Assembly: GCA_020247055.1 (NCBI GenBank)
Contig: JADCJL010000070.1
Location: 1-45,883 of the forward strand
Reading direction: 5' to 3'
Length of the DNA: 45,883 bases
Source of the DNA: Acidobacteriaceae bacterium
GTDB lineage: Bacteria; Acidobacteriota; Terriglobia; Bryobacterales; Bryobacteraceae
The notes beneath the pieces were generated by a model that ran no database searches, was not told the origin of the DNA, and saw only the letters and a program-made list of their open reading frames with translations. Below, one piece after another: positions 28,575 through 33,292 of this stretch (positions are counted from its first letter, which is position 1; each line of letters starts with the position of its first letter). Position numbers and translations under genes: made by a program.

Positions 28575-29899
28575 GCGGGGACCGGCGCGAGGTATTCGTC
28601 GAGGGCCGCCGTGGCGCGACGGCAGACTTCGGCGTGACGCGCTTTTTTGTCTTTGCGGAGGGCCTTGCGGGTGGGCTCGTCGAGGGCGGGGAGAAGATCG
28701 AAGGTGATGTTGGCGGGCTGATAGTGGCGGGGGTCGGCGCCGGTGATGTAGTGGAGCAGGGAGCCGAGGGCGGTTTCGCGCGGCAGGGGGCGCGGGGCGG
28801 GGTTGACGGCGAACTGCCCGGCGAGCAGGCCGGTGGCGATGGATTCGACGTAGCCTTCGACGCCGGAGATCTGGCCGGCGAAGTAGATGCGGGGTTCGGC
28901 GCGGAGCTGGAGGAAGTGGTTGAGCAGGGCGGGAGCGTTGATGTAGGTGTTGCGATGGATCTGGCCGTAGCGGAGGAAGACGGCGTTTTGCAGGCCGGGA
29001 ATCATGCGGAAGATGCGGGCCTGTTCGCCAAACTTGAGAGAGGTTTGGAAGCCGACGAGGTTATAGCTGTCGGCGCGGAGGTTTTCCTGGCGGAGTTGAA
29101 CGGCGGCGTAGGGCCAGCGGCCGGTGCGGGGATCATCGAGGCCGGTGGGCTTCATGGGGCCGAAGCGGAGGGTGTGGGGGCCGCGGCGGACGATCTGGTC
29201 GATCGGCAGGCAGCCTTCAAAGTAGGGGGTGTTGTCTTCGGGGATGTGCGGTTCGTAGCTCTGGGCTGCGAGCAGGGCGGCGATGAAGGCTTCGTATTCG
29301 GCTTTGTTGAGGGGGCAGTTGACGTAGTCGGCCGAATCGTCCATGGACTTGCCGTAGCGGGAGGCGCGAAAGGCGATGGAGTAGTCGATGGATTCGGCGT
29401 CGACGATGGGGGAGATGGCGTCGTAGAAGTAGAGGCGGTCGGCGCCGGTGAGCCGGGCGATGTCCTGGGCGAGGGGGTCGGAGGTGAGGGGGCCGGAGGC
29501 GATGATGACGGTGCCGTCGCCGGGGACGCGGGTGATCTCTTCGCGGCGGATGGTGATGCGCGGGTGGGTGGTGAGGCGATCGACGATGAACTTCGAGAAG
29601 ACCTCGCGGTCGACGGTGAGGGCCTGGCCACCGGGGACGCGGGCGGCGTCGGCGGCGGCCAGGAGCATGCTGCCGAGGCGGCGGAGTTCCTGTTTGAGCT
29701 GGCGGGGGGCGGAGTTTTCGGCCTCGGATTTAAGGGAGTTGGAGCAGACGAGTTCAGCGGGCTGGTCGGTCTGGTGGGCCGTGGTGGACTTATGGGGCCG
29801 CATTTCATAAAGCACGACCTCGCGGCCGGCCTCGGCGACCTGCCAGGCGGCTTCCGAGCCGGCAAGGCCGGCGCCAATGACGATAACGGGACTGCTCAC
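28571..29899 (-). CDS. trmFO: Methylenetetrahydrofolate-tRNA-(uracil-5-)-methyltransferase TrmFO
   Basis: From GTG at 29897-29899 the product is 442 residues, normal for TrmFO. The FAD-binding motif is VIVIGAGLAGSEAAW at the N-terminus. Family signatures follow: YEMRPHKSTTAHQT, ELVCSNSLKSE, GGQALTVDRE, CPLNKAEYEAF, FEGCLPID, GPMKPTGLDDPRTGR, LKFGEQ and AGQISGVEGYVES. It forms 5-methyluridine-54 in tRNA using methylenetetrahydrofolate and FADH2 in the cytoplasm. The start overlaps the stop of the response-regulator gene (GTGA), and TACAATAGAGTCGTG places a -10-like hexamer six bases before the GTG, so it may also have its own leaderless transcript. Confidence 0.95.
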   Translation of the reverse strand: MSSPVIVIGAGLAGSEAAWQVAEAGREVVLYEMRPHKSTTAHQTDQPAELVCSNSLKSEAENSAPRQLKQELRRLGSMLLAAADAARVPGGQALTVDREVFSKFIVDRLTTHPRITIRREEITRVPGDGTVIIASGPLTSDPLAQDIARLTGADRLYFYDAISPIVDAESIDYSIAFRASRYGKSMDDSADYVNCPLNKAEYEAFIAALLAAQSYEPHIPEDNTPYFEGCLPIDQIVRRGPHTLRFGPMKPTGLDDPRTGRWPYAAVQLRQENLRADSYNLVGFQTSLKFGEQARIFRMIPGLQNAVFLRYGQIHRNTYINAPALLNHFLQLRAEPRIYFAGQISGVEGYVESIATGLLAGQFAVNPAPRPLPRETALGSLLHYITGADPRHYQPANITFDLLPALDEPTRKALRKDKKARHAEVCRRATAALDEYLAPVPA

Positions 29900-31269
29900 G
29901 ACTCTATTGTACGAGCCAGGCCGTGCTTCTCCATGCGATAGATGAGGGTTTTCCGGCTGATGTCGAGGTACTTGGCGGCGTGGGTTTGGTTCCAGTCGCA
30001 TTTTTCTAGCGCCTTGAGGATAAGCTCTTTTTCGACGTTCTCAAGGGAGATGCCCGTGGTGGGGAGGTCGAGTTGGAGGGCTCCGGGGACCGTGCCGACG
30101 GCGGCGAGTTTGGGCGGGAGGTCCTCAAGGGTAACGTTGTTTGAACGGGCGAGGACGGCGATGCGTTCGAGGATGTTTTCGAGCTCGCGGATGTTGCCGG
30201 GCCAGCGGTAGCCCTGGAAGTGGGGGAGCAGCGCCGGGGGGAAAACGAGATTGGGCCGGTTGACGCGCTGCTTGGCGCGATCGAAGAAGAAGTTCACGAG
30301 GTCGGGGATATCGCAGGGGCGTTCGCGGAGGGGGGGCAGTTCGAGGGGGATGACGGCGAGGCGGTAGTAGAGGTCCTCGCGGAAGGTGCCGTCTTCGATC
30401 ATGGCCGCCAGGTTGCGATGGGTGGCGGCGACCAGACGGACGTCGACGCGCGTGGGTTCGGTGGCGCCGAGCTTTTCGATCTCGCGTTCCTGGATGACGC
30501 GGAGGAGTTTGACCTGGAGTTCGGGCGGCATTTCGCCGATTTCGTCGAGGAAGAGAGTGCCGCCGTGGGCCATTTCGATACGGCCTTTTTTGTGGGCGAT
30601 GGCGCCGGTGAAGGATCCCTTGATGTGGCCGAACAGTTCGCTTTCGAGGAGTTCGCGGGGGATGGCGCCGCAGTTGATGGCGACGAAGGGATGGTCGCGG
30701 CGGGGAGAGTTGAAGTGGATGGCCTTGGCCAGGAGCTCTTTGCCGGTACCGGTTTCGCCATTGATAAGAACGGTGGAGTCGGTTTGCGCGGCGCGGCCGG
30801 CGACGTCGAGGACGTAGAGGAGATTCGGGGACCGGCCGATGATGTTTTCAAAGCCGTACTTGGCCGAGACCGACGAGCGGAGGGTTTGGACCTCCTCGCG
30901 AAGGCGCTGGGTTTCGAGGGCGCGGGCGACGGTCATGAGCAGGTCGGTGGATTCGACCGGTTTGGTGAGGTAGTCAAAGGCGCCGGACTTCATGGCGTCG
31001 ACGGCGGATTCAACGGAACCGTAAGCGGTGAGGAGAATGACGGGGGTGCCGGGAGCGTCGGCTTTGATGCGCTTGAGGAGATCCAGCCCGGAAAGACCGG
31101 GCATCATGAGGTCGGAAACGACAAGGTGGAAGGGCTGGCGTTCCAGGGCGGCGATGGCTTCTTCGGCGCAGACGGCGCAGGTGACGCGATAGGAGGCAGC
31201 CTCGAGGCGAAGCTGCATAATGCGGCGGAGTGAGACGTCGTCTTCGACGAGAAGGATAGACGGGATCAT
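29896..31269 (-). CDS. NtrC-family sigma-54-dependent response regulator
   Basis: The 457-residue product has a receiver domain (1-115: VEDD, phospho-acceptor Asp53 in VVSDLMMPG, Lys103 in LTKP). A sigma-54 activator AAA+ domain follows (about 140-370) with Walker A GETGTGKE at 171-178, the sigma-54-contact loop GSFTGA at 218-223 and Walker B TLFLDE at 238-243. It ends in a Fis-type helix-turn-helix (NQTHAAKYLDISRKTLIYRM). It activates transcription by RNA polymerase-sigma-54. Its start overlaps the histidine-kinase stop by four bases, so the pair is cognate. A strong -24/-12 promoter about 1.5 kb upstream, facing away, is a likely target. Confidence 0.95.
   Translation of the reverse strand: MIPSILLVEDDVSLRRIMQLRLEAASYRVTCAVCAEEAIAALERQPFHLVVSDLMMPGLSGLDLLKRIKADAPGTPVILLTAYGSVESAVDAMKSGAFDYLTKPVESTDLLMTVARALETQRLREEVQTLRSSVSAKYGFENIIGRSPNLLYVLDVAGRAAQTDSTVLINGETGTGKELLAKAIHFNSPRRDHPFVAINCGAIPRELLESELFGHIKGSFTGAIAHKKGRIEMAHGGTLFLDEIGEMPPELQVKLLRVIQEREIEKLGATEPTRVDVRLVAATHRNLAAMIEDGTFREDLYYRLAVIPLELPPLRERPCDIPDLVNFFFDRAKQRVNRPNLVFPPALLPHFQGYRWPGNIRELENILERIAVLARSNNVTLEDLPPKLAAVGTVPGALQLDLPTTGISLENVEKELILKALEKCDWNQTHAAKYLDISRKTLIYRMEKHGLARTIES
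29906..29911 (-). promoter_or_regulatory. -10 element TACAAT inside the regulator gene, before trmFO
   Basis: TACAAT lies in the last codons of the response-regulator gene and is followed by AGAGTC and the trmFO GTG. Codon constraints (Arg-Thr-Ile-Glu-Ser) could produce this by chance, but the spacing matches the other leaderless starts. Confidence 0.4.
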
Positions 31270-32330
31270 GATTGCTTCTCCTGGCTGGTGGGGAGTTCGA
31301 CGAGGAATTCGCTCCCGTGGGGTTCGCGGCCTTCTGCCGTGATGCGGCCGTGGTGGGCGGCGACGATCTGGGCGGTGACGGCCAGGCCGAGGCCGGTGCC
31401 GTCGGGCTTGGTGGTGACGAACGGATCGAAGATGCGGTCGCGTTTATCGGGGGGGATGCCGGGGCCGGTGTCGGCGACGCGGATACGGACCACGGTGGGC
31501 GTGGCTTCGAGGGAGAAATCGACGGAGCCGCCGGTGGGCATGGCCTGGATGGCATTCATGGTGAGGTTCAGGAAGACCTGGGTGAGCTGTTCGCCATCGC
31601 AGTAGAGGGGGACCCGCGAGGCGGGCGGGGCGAAGCGGAGATCGACTTGATTTTGCCGAGCGCTCGGGGTGGCGAGGGCGATCACGCTGCCGAGGAGTTC
31701 GCGGACATCGGAGTGGCGGAACTCGGGCGGCTGGGGCTTGGCGTAATTGAGGAGGCCGGCGAGGAGGCGGCTGAGGCGGCGGGACTCTTTGCGCAGGATG
31801 CTGGTCATCTCCGAACGGAGTGCGGGTGCGAGATCGGTATCGAGCATCTCCGCGGCGCCTTCGATGGAGGCGAGGGGGGTACGGATTTCGTGGGCTAGGC
31901 TGGCGGCGAGCTGCCCGGTGGCGGACAGGCGCGCGGCGCGGCGGAGGTTTTCCATGCTGTCCTGGAGCTGCTGGTAGGCGAGGCTCAGTTCGCGGGTAGT
32001 CTGCTGGAGCAGGATGCGTTTGCGCCGTTCACGGTCGGCGAGGATGCCCATGATGCATCCGATAAGGAAGAGGTCGACGGCTTCGACCATGGCCTCTTCG
32101 CTGTGGTCAGCCGGGAGATAGAGAGCCGTGGCGGCCAAGGCGGCGACCAGACTGCCGCGCCAGCCAAACCAGAGCGCCGCCATGACGATGGGGAGGAAGA
32201 GGAGGTAGCGAAGAATCTTTCCGACAAAGGGAAGGCTACCGGGGGTGAGGTTAAACGCGACGACGATGGAGGCCAGGACGAGGCTGACGGCGATCGCCTG
32301 GAGGCGCCGGGCTTTGCGTTCAAGAGGCAT
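31266..32330 (-). CDS. Membrane-bound sensor histidine kinase
   Basis: The 354-residue product has three or four N-terminal membrane segments (about residues 12-27, 38-56, 58-74, 84-97). A short coiled coil (about 100-135) follows, then a HisKA domain with His147 in SLAHEIRTPLASIEG. The HATPase domain has the N box QVFLNLTMNAIQAMP (Asn259), G1 DTGPGIP and F/G2 FDPFVTTKPDGTGLGL. There is almost no periplasmic domain, so it probably senses a signal in the membrane. It phosphorylates the adjacent NtrC-type regulator. The upstream small gene overlaps its start by 11 bases. Confidence 0.93.
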   Translation of the reverse strand: MPLERKARRLQAIAVSLVLASIVVAFNLTPGSLPFVGKILRYLLFLPIVMAALWFGWRGSLVAALAATALYLPADHSEEAMVEAVDLFLIGCIMGILADRERRKRILLQQTTRELSLAYQQLQDSMENLRRAARLSATGQLAASLAHEIRTPLASIEGAAEMLDTDLAPALRSEMTSILRKESRRLSRLLAGLLNYAKPQPPEFRHSDVRELLGSVIALATPSARQNQVDLRFAPPASRVPLYCDGEQLTQVFLNLTMNAIQAMPTGGSVDFSLEATPTVVRIRVADTGPGIPPDKRDRIFDPFVTTKPDGTGLGLAVTAQIVAAHHGRITAEGREPHGSEFLVELPTSQEKQS

Positions 32331-32721
32331 TTGCTGATGGCTTGGGGCCTGACGCTTTTCGGGCAGGATGCCGGAATTGGGGCAGCTTCCATCCCTTCGA
32401 TTTGAGGGCGCGAACGAGGCGGGCGGCGAGGCTGGGGCGGTGCAGATGAAGGAAGGTCTGGCCGTCGACCTCGATCAGTTGAAGCGGTACGGAAGCGAGA
32501 AAAGCATCTTGCGGGGAGCGCCGGACTTGTTCGGTAAGTTGCACAGGCTCAAAGACTAAGATGGCACGATTGGGGGGGACAATGGCGCCCACGGCGGAGC
32601 GGACATCGTAGGCAATATCCCACTCGGAGGCGATCTCCAGTTTGGCATCCGACAGGGCGGCATGGATGGTAGTGACGGCTTGGCGAAGCGGACAAGGAAG
32701 AAACAATTCGCGGCTGCGCAT
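32320..32721 (-). CDS. Small protein of unknown function, first gene of the two-component operon
   Basis: The 133-residue product has an alpha/beta N-terminal domain: LRQAVTTIHAALSDAKLEIA, then VGAIVPPNRAILVFEPVQL and VPLQLIEVDGQTFLHLHRPS. This strand-helix order is loosely like DUF302 domains, but the match is weak. A basic, low-complexity tail (FRHPARKASGPKPSA) ends it. It has no signal peptide. It overlaps the histidine-kinase gene, so it may act in the same signalling pathway. The start ATG lies inside one arm of an inverted repeat shared with the divergent sigma-54 promoter region. Confidence 0.65.
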   Translation of the reverse strand: MRSRELFLPCPLRQAVTTIHAALSDAKLEIASEWDIAYDVRSAVGAIVPPNRAILVFEPVQLTEQVRRSPQDAFLASVPLQLIEVDGQTFLHLHRPSLAARLVRALKSKGWKLPQFRHPARKASGPKPSANAS

Positions 32722-32761
32722 GCCAAAAGACGTGCATTTCGAACGCCACTAAGTTTGGCAT
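32720..32761. repeat. Inverted repeat ATGCCAAA / TTTGGCAT in the divergent promoter region
   Basis: ATGCCAAA at 32720-32727 and its exact complement TTTGGCAT at 32754-32761 are 26 bases apart. The right arm overlaps the -24 box of the sigma-54 promoter and the left arm contains the start codon of the divergent operon. It may be an operator joining the two transcription units. Confidence 0.5.
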
Positions 32762-32771
32762 GGTGTTTGCA
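32756..32771 (+). promoter_or_regulatory. Sigma-54 (-24/-12) promoter
   Basis: TGGCATGGTGTTTGCA matches the sigma-54 consensus TGGCAC-N5-TTGCW, with GG and GC separated by exactly ten bases. The start point would be near 32782, leaving a leader of about 29 bases with AAAGGAG before ATG 32811. The gene for an NtrC-type activator lies in the divergent operon, so the regulator and its probable target adjoin. Confidence 0.8.
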
Positions 32772-32810
32772 TATAGGGCAAGTGTGCCGAGAGCACAAAG
32801 GAGAATTTCA

Positions 32811-33227
32811 ATGAATTTGAACCGAGTTATGTTCACCCTCTCTCTGACCCTCGCTCTGGCAGTGGGCGCGCAGGGCAGTATGAGCACCGTGGCCGAGAAG
32901 GCGCGGGCCGCTAAGCAGCATGCCACGGAGATCGAGGCCATGCTGAAGACCAAGAACATCGATGCAGCAAAGGTGGCCGAGAAGGCCAGCCTGTTGCACA
33001 ATCATGCCGTGGAGATTCATCAGACGGTGTCGTCGATGGACAACAAGAGTGCGGAAGTCGCCAAAGTGGAAGAGGCGGCGCGGATCATGAAGGTGCTGAC
33101 CGAAACCAAGCTGAACCTGGCGAAGAACGCGACGGCAAAGGATCGCGATGCCCTGCGGGCCTCGGCCAAGAACCTGGCGATCCGGGCCGAGCAGATCGCG
33201 AAGACCGCCGCTCGAATTGGCGGTTAA
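32811..33227 (+). CDS. Small secreted helical protein, probable sigma-54-dependent target
   Basis: ATG 32811 follows AAAGGAG (32797-32803). The 138-residue product has a signal peptide (FTLSLTLALAVGAQG) and an almost wholly helical, Ala/Lys/Glu-rich mature chain. It has two His-containing related stretches, ARAAKQHATEIEAMLK and ASLLHNHAVEIHQTV, separated by KTKNIDAAKVAEK, suggesting an antiparallel helical bundle. No Cys or haem motif is present. It is expected in the periplasm or outside the cell. I recognise no family. The consensus -24/-12 promoter and the neighbouring NtrC/histidine-kinase pair indicate inducible expression, for example under envelope stress or nutrient limitation. Confidence 0.8.
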   Translation: MNLNRVMFTLSLTLALAVGAQGSMSTVAEKARAAKQHATEIEAMLKTKNIDAAKVAEKASLLHNHAVEIHQTVSSMDNKSAEVAKVEEAARIMKVLTETKLNLAKNATAKDRDALRASAKNLAIRAEQIAKTAARIGG

Positions 33228-33260: not shown

Positions 33261-33292
33261 CGCCCTGCGCGGGACGAATCCCGCGCAGGGCG
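33261..33292 (+). terminator. Perfect 14-bp hairpin after the secreted protein gene
   Basis: CGCCCTGCGCGGGA (33261-33274), loop CGAA, then TCCCGCGCAGGGCG (33279-33292). It sits 33 bases after the stop and 36 bases before mutS2. The stem with a tetraloop is very stable, but no T run follows, so termination may be factor-assisted. Confidence 0.6.

Follow-up and report, generated by a model that had tools for sequence, protein, structure and literature searches.

The closest described system is ZraPSR (HydHG) of Escherichia coli and Salmonella. It pairs a membrane kinase with a regulator of the NtrC family and has divergent sigma-54 promoters, one for the kinase/regulator operon and one for a small protein of the periplasm. 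In Salmonella, ZraR drives the divergent sigma-54 promoters of zraSR and zraP (PMC4987338). A second paper describes ZraR as the activator of the chaperone ZraP, with later work treating ZraSR as a response to envelope stress that zinc activates (PMC7657598). The locus analyzed here appears to follow this plan, and it lies on contig C327 of a Bryobacteraceae genome of 6.56 Mb in 358 contigs, within a 45,883-nucleotide stretch of DNA that we call the window. An earlier note on this DNA had held the system to be undescribed, a claim that, as to plan, yields to the ZraP/ZraSR precedent (PMC4987338). The likeness of the divergent promoters to those of ZraPSR is one of motifs, and there are several differences: the regulator reaches 402 bits on the ZraR equivalog model against a cut-off of 760, and the kinase 189 bits on that for ZraS against 479; the small protein matches no ZraP-type family; the kinase has no sizeable periplasmic domain; the operon is headed by a gene for a DUF302-fold protein; and the two sigma-54 sites are set 7 bases apart.

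Other comparators are the LTXXQ periplasmic chaperones CpxP, Spy and ZraP, which resemble the window protein in being small, exported and helical and in their stress-type control. The window protein, however, has no such match at E up to 1, a threshold at which HMMER filters drop most weak matches, and its four-helix model finds no match in the PDB by Foldseek at E 0.001 or better. Within the same bacterial family, the pairs associated with CusCBA/Czc-type RND operons are alike in having a related kinase and regulator, a divergent target and GG-N10-GC in 7 of 8 cases, but their target is an RND efflux operon, whereas that predicted in the window is a small four-helix protein. Literature searches on back-to-back divergent sigma-54 promoters, on sigma-54 in Bryobacteraceae and on CusCBA with sigma-54 enhancer-binding proteins found nothing, and those on sigma-54, two-component systems and efflux in Acidobacteria, on DUF302 two-component systems and on sigma-54 overlapping-divergent copper regulators gave, by title, no paper on this module.

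Organization of the locus

A predicted sigma-54 (-24/-12) promoter, TGGCATGGTGTTTGCA, is located on the plus strand at 32756..32771, where it fits TGGCAYRNNNNTTGCW at 16/16 positions with the exact GG-N10-GC spacing that had been claimed for it, and it ends 39 bases ahead of the gene for a 138-residue exported protein. The GG-N10-GC has the TGGCAY/TTGC context, and sigma-54 itself is encoded in the genome (PF04552, 192 bits); at the level of sequence, the proposal of a sigma-54 promoter for an exported helical protein finds support, as does its coupling, within the genus, to the adjacent kinase and regulator. When the window was scanned with up to one mismatch there were 2 matches against a shuffle mean of 0.90, and 20 of 100 shuffles reached 2, so that this count, being at chance level, is no evidence. 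The perfect pattern occurs four times in the whole genome and the backwards pattern once; the other three perfect sites suggested no shared regulon.

On the opposite strand a second sigma-54-type site that the earlier note overlooked, TGGCGTTCGAAATGCA at 32733..32748, faces the kinase operon, keeps GG-N10-GC and scores 13/16. The two 16-mers are arranged back-to-back with 7 bases between them (32748 and 32756).

The minus-strand operon had been described as consisting of a histidine kinase and a regulator with GSFTGA, both of which stand on domain matches, but its first gene is a third, small one (32320..32721, minus strand), passed over at first reading and overlapping the kinase frame. Its 133-residue product has a predicted DUF302 fold: a profile of 12 relatives (alignment A2) matches TT1751 (1j3m) at E 2.6e-7, and an AlphaFold2 model (mean pLDDT 83) matches 1j3m at E 1.5e-7 and the DUF302 structure 1q9u at E 1.3e-5. 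Pfam alone gives no match for the window protein and a match in 2 of the 12 relatives, one of them above cut-off; by profile and modeled fold together, the family is related to DUF302. Relatives are also found upstream of the kinase in other genera, where tblastn places them at L091 and L092, and alignment, with identities near 25%, places them at L096 and L106.

The kinase (31266..32330, minus strand) has HisKA (PF00512) and HATPase_c (PF02518) domains and is predicted from hydropathy to be a membrane protein, with hydrophobic segments at residues 7-36, 33-65 (where the second window is marginal) and 79-100; hydropathy indicates no sizeable periplasmic domain, these segments all lying within residues 7-100. 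The regulator (29896..31269, minus strand) is of NtrC type, with a receiver (PF00072), an AAA+ domain whose GSFTGA is a GAFTGA-type loop (PF00158) and a Fis-type helix-turn-helix (PF02954). The end of its gene, at 29896-30001, overlaps the longest listed trmFO frame, and in the genus loci trmFO is either the immediate neighbor of the regulator gene or some 2 kb distant from it.

The small exported protein

The small gene (32811..33227, plus strand) starts with the ATG at 32811, preceded by AAGGAG at 32798-32803, the clear Shine-Dalgarno sequence that had been reported, while a longer frame from 32760 begins within the promoter. The N-terminus of the product is hydrophobic over residues 6-22 and of export type, consistent with the signal peptide previously proposed, which would span about residues 1-22. 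The predicted mature protein of about 116 residues has 26 Ala, 14 Lys and 4 His and a pI of 9.7, and the former description of it as His-rich was overstated. Comparison of the window gene with five relatives gave dN/dS values of about 0.03 to 0.23, which indicate that it is under purifying selection. In the AlphaFold2 model (mean pLDDT 82, pTM 0.75, below 50 only at residues 1-20) the protein forms a four-helix bundle, with helices at residues 24-46, 52-74, 81-104 and 109-136. Designed bundles and cytochrome b562 variants came up as weak Foldseek matches, which are no evidence of kinship.

Against Pfam, NCBIfam and PDB sequences the protein has no match near a curated cut-off, the best being to NCBIfam at 0.0066, where it scores 15.5 bits and the cut-off is 185. 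For a set of 17 relatives the strongest family match is DUF1490 at 5.1e-4, in one member, and no ZraP-type family appears for them among the matches listed (25 of 38 families). The nearest named records, 95 and 96% identical, are from metagenome-assembled Bryobacteraceae/Acidobacteria. Helix 2 carries H-x-H-x4-H in 8 of the 12 clade members (the window, L027-L030 and L033-L035), and the motif is incomplete in L031, L032, L036 and L037. It is absent from the printed family rows outside the clade, 8 of which align full length; the printed set excludes the fragment L038 and anything scoring worse than E 1e-8. On these alignments the motif was gained once, at the level of the clade.

An inverted repeat, TGTGC-N5-GCACA (32783..32797, plus strand), lies where the small-gene mRNA is predicted to begin, and may be a stem-loop or a regulator site. 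It is kept as a repeat, with other letters, in a second sub-clade; its folding z-scores are -0.4 to -1.8 in five of six sequences and -3.0 in one. A dyad search of 15 regions recovered GTGC-N5-GCAC in six (five of one sub-clade, and L170), with shuffles giving at most 4, and recovered the promoter dyad as well, and found no regulator site common to both sub-clades. Since the recognition helix of the regulator hardly varies whereas the leader repeat does, an RNA stem-loop is favored. A 14-base perfect inverted repeat, CATGCCAAA/TTTGGCATG, lies in the gap between the small gene and mutS2 (33261..33292) and is a possible terminator or boundary; among the loci aligned it is found in the window and L027 only.

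Conservation within the genus

The genus set comprised 19 genomes, and 13 of them carry the kinase at a threshold of E 1e-60. The small gene is present in 12, all among those 13, and six of the seven genomes without it have no kinase orthologue at that threshold; the thirteenth kinase genome, G012 (58% complete), has a truncated relic of the small gene. With damaged copies included, the small gene is divergent from the kinase and regulator in 11 of the 12 genomes having it, and the search for the first operon gene succeeded at 10 of the 11 divergent loci (all except L036). Of 13 loci that have the small gene or a remnant of it, 12 keep the plus-strand GG-N10-GC, scoring 16/16 in eight, 15 in two, 14 in one and 11 in one; at the remaining locus, L032, the small gene is interrupted by an in-frame stop. 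On the minus strand GG-N10-GC is kept in 13 of 14 loci, in sites that are weaker across the genus (11 to 13 of 16), and here the exception, L031, has operon scraps only. At L062, where the kinase and regulator are broken, both sites are kept in weak form. The background frequency is 1.75% for GG-N10-GC at a fixed position and 3.1% for a score of at least 12 anywhere in a 15-position range, with the proviso that the loci are not independent trials, because the genomes are related. It had been suggested that homologues be checked for linkage to the kinase and regulator and for -24/-12 boxes, and nearly all those of the orthologous clade retain both.

A split in G017 and decay in G011 are more telling than the counts. 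In G017, the operon contig (L061, G017:C26) carries the first gene, kinase, regulator and trmFO, with homology ending between the promoters, and this copy retains the minus site TGGTGCCCCAAATGCA. The other contig (L031, G017:C2) carries the small gene with its own site TGGCAAGGTGTTTGCA, and the operon-side site there, TGGTGCTCTAGATACA, has lost its GC; decayed kinase scraps lie beside the small gene on this contig. In G011 the small gene has an in-frame stop and its promoter has lost the GG. Three genomes, G006, G011 and G012, have a damaged small gene, and since the kinase and regulator frames are open in G006 and G011, it would be dispensable in those two genomes; the regulator probably has other targets there. 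Assembly error is a possible source of the damage. In G012 the operon is broken as well, yet its site retains GG-N10-GC.

The small-protein family beyond the genus

With a profile of the 17 relatives, members of the small-protein family came up in 50 of the 237 genomes that represent the taxonomic family. Among 396 genomes drawn from the phylum, for which the cut-off was stricter and the scoring covered 9 candidates in each, 2 had a member, one of them being the window's own genome. In some genera the family occurs in two or three close copies (L125, L126, L131-L134, L136). Among the outside-clade loci read, several of whose flanks are short contigs, a strong kinase/regulator match near the small gene is seen only at L045 (G059), L115 (about 4 kb away) and L128. 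In G059 the kinase, regulator, small protein and DUF302-fold relative are together in another order, with a site of 13/16, while G179 has the kinase clade and no small gene at E 0.001.

This distribution bears on whether the small protein serves chiefly to regulate the kinase by feedback, in the manner of ZraP or CpxP, rather than as an effector. Within the genus the clade's small gene is found only alongside this kinase, which speaks for such a role, but at most of the loci read outside the clade the family member is not accompanied by a kinase of this kind, and the kinase offers no outer domain of any size for the small protein to bind, which makes a mainly regulatory role unlikely.

An upstream scan anchored on the profile, which covered 58 rows at 49 outside-clade loci with paralogues included, found a site of at least 14/16 in 1 row, against 2 in the backwards control, and one of at least 13 in 11 rows against 6; there is thus no general enrichment of sites outside the clade, and no site of at least 14 was found before the small genes read in G040, G261 and G262. 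Within the clade, sites of at least 14 were found in 10 of 12 rows and in 0 of 12 controls. The two missing are L032 and L035, the latter being missed because of its damaged start and scoring 14/16 in the comparison of genus loci. The earlier note would have given up its proposal if homologues were found without the two-component genes or the motif, which is the case for the wider family, where 57 of 58 rows have no site of at least 14/16; its notion of a self-contained system fits the kinase clade and does not extend to the small-protein family.

The near-chance frequency of sites of at least 13 outside the clade, together with the chance-level one-mismatch count in the window, might be taken to mean that the plus-strand site resembles a sigma-54 promoter by accident. 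Given the rarity of perfect sites in the genome, and a contrast of 10/12 to 0/12 that holds down to about 36-41% protein identity, an accidental resemblance is very improbable.

A member of another genus, G178, has a perfect 16/16 site, TGGCACGAGGCTTGCT, in locus L123 (2802-2817; context TTTGGCAC), about 73 bases before the start of its small protein. Its kinase and regulator are encoded on another contig (L091) and belong to the same clade as those of the window, suggesting that the promoter stays even where the linkage does not. The L123 small gene is likely a trans target of the kindred G178 regulator.

A near-symmetric element

The two motifs of the window together make up a near-symmetric element, TGCA-N8-GCCA-N7-TGGC-N8-TGCA, and this raises the alternative that the minus motif is one half of a regulator-binding dyad and that the operon is transcribed from another promoter. 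Sigma-54 transcription starts about 12 bases after the GC, and at that distance the first operon gene (32320-32721) would be nearly leaderless, which, like the persistence of the minus site at L062 beside a broken operon, would suit a binding element better than a promoter. In G017, by contrast, the minus half stays with the operon when severed from the other half, and the copy parted from the operon has a minus half without its GC, while the unlinked small gene of G178 is preceded by a plus site without mismatch, and just upstream of it no minus site scores 12 or more. We consider a dyad half rather unlikely on this evidence, and continue to read the minus site as a putative operon promoter, acknowledging that its weak match and the near-leaderless first gene may count against this part of our explanation.

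Kindred kinase/regulator pairs and efflux operons

Kinase matches were found in 76 of the 237 family genomes, and 20 loci were taken near the top of the list, not at random. In seven of these (L152, L153, L155, L156, L157, L168 and L170) the kinase/regulator pair is divergent from genes for an outer-membrane efflux protein, an adaptor and an RND pump, and in an eighth pump locus, L154, only the outer-membrane gene was called. The three L152 proteins match an OEP, a CusB-type adaptor with a heavy-metal-binding domain and a CusA/CzcA pump in the libraries, the pumps of L152 and L157 matching CusA/CzcA above cut-off; the remaining pump-operon proteins are named by resemblance. An SLT lytic transglycosylase gene lies between the kinase and the efflux operon, on the kinase strand, at L155 (2733-3557) and, by resemblance, at L156.

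In a stretch that begins 300 bases upstream of the called start of the first pump gene and ends 120 bases downstream of it, seven of the eight pump operons have a GG-N10-GC site of at least 13 facing that gene, five of them at least 14, compared with one of eight in the backwards control on either strand; three of these sites lie after the called start, which is itself uncertain. The pump-linked kinases are 44-46% and the regulators 60-67% identical to those of the window, and there seems to be a family of sigma-54 efflux regulators in Bryobacteraceae. In both trees (36 rows each, midpoint-rooted, with long branches flagged in the kinase tree) the small-protein-linked rows fall in one clade of 18 rows, with support of 100/98 and 100/100, and the pump-linked rows fall outside it. 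This clade is made up of 13 small-protein-linked rows (12 genus loci, including the split G017, and G059) together with L091, L092, L162, L171 and L098.

The divergent arrangement of these kindred pairs and CusCBA-type efflux operons makes stress from metal or at the envelope the likeliest signal, and the pump-linked kin together with the clade-specific His motif point toward metal. The same circuit might instead respond to envelope or membrane stress unrelated to metal, its small protein serving as a holdase or spacer with incidental histidines. Such a signal would accord with a kinase that has no outer domain of size, with the absence of the His motif from the printed family rows outside the clade and with the recasting of ZraSR as a zinc-activated envelope stress response (PMC7657598). 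It sits poorly with the position of the kin pairs beside CusCBA-type operons, and we regard it as possible, though somewhat doubtful.

A probable ZraPSR-like stress module

Our preferred reading, which we hold to be probable, is that the locus is a ZraPSR-like stress module in which a kinase acts through its regulator on two sigma-54 promoters to produce an exported four-helix protein. It draws on sequence features and models, namely the two motifs conserved with their genes, the linkage, the purifying selection, the export-type N-terminus, the predicted folds and the kinship with efflux-linked pairs. From these we infer a signal, activation by this regulator, metal binding or chaperone activity, and feedback. 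The kinase, which has no large outer domain, would sense a change at the membrane or in the periplasm, the likeliest being a surplus of metal or the harm that this does to the envelope, and would phosphorylate the NtrC-type regulator, which would in turn activate sigma-54 polymerase at the two back-to-back promoters. One promoter would raise the operon for the DUF302-fold protein, kinase and regulator, amounting to positive autoregulation, and the other would make the exported four-helix protein, whose task in the periplasm would be to bind metal or misfolded proteins, and which may also dampen signaling.

A bolder form of this proposal is that, in this genus, both outputs fire from one symmetric element and that the overlapping promoters exclude each other, so that the element would act as a bidirectional switch, with autoamplification on one side and effector production on the other, within a Bryobacteraceae family of short-sensor sigma-54 two-component systems that has swapped its outputs between CusCBA pumps and a lineage-specific four-helix exported protein. 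The exclusion is suggested by how large the footprint of sigma-54 polymerase is relative to the 7-base spacing, and this joint reading is speculative and, taken whole, rather improbable. If the module is as proposed, its two sigma-54 promoters, facing away from each other at very close quarters, would offer a natural test case for promoter exclusion.

As judged from motifs, linkage and conservation, the locus is a real, conserved sigma-54 module, one with a known plan and an effector that is not. If the ZraPSR-like reading is true, the ZraPSR plan would have been built more than once, here with an unrelated effector, and an unnamed family of exported proteins in an abundant soil phylum would gain a regulatory handle.
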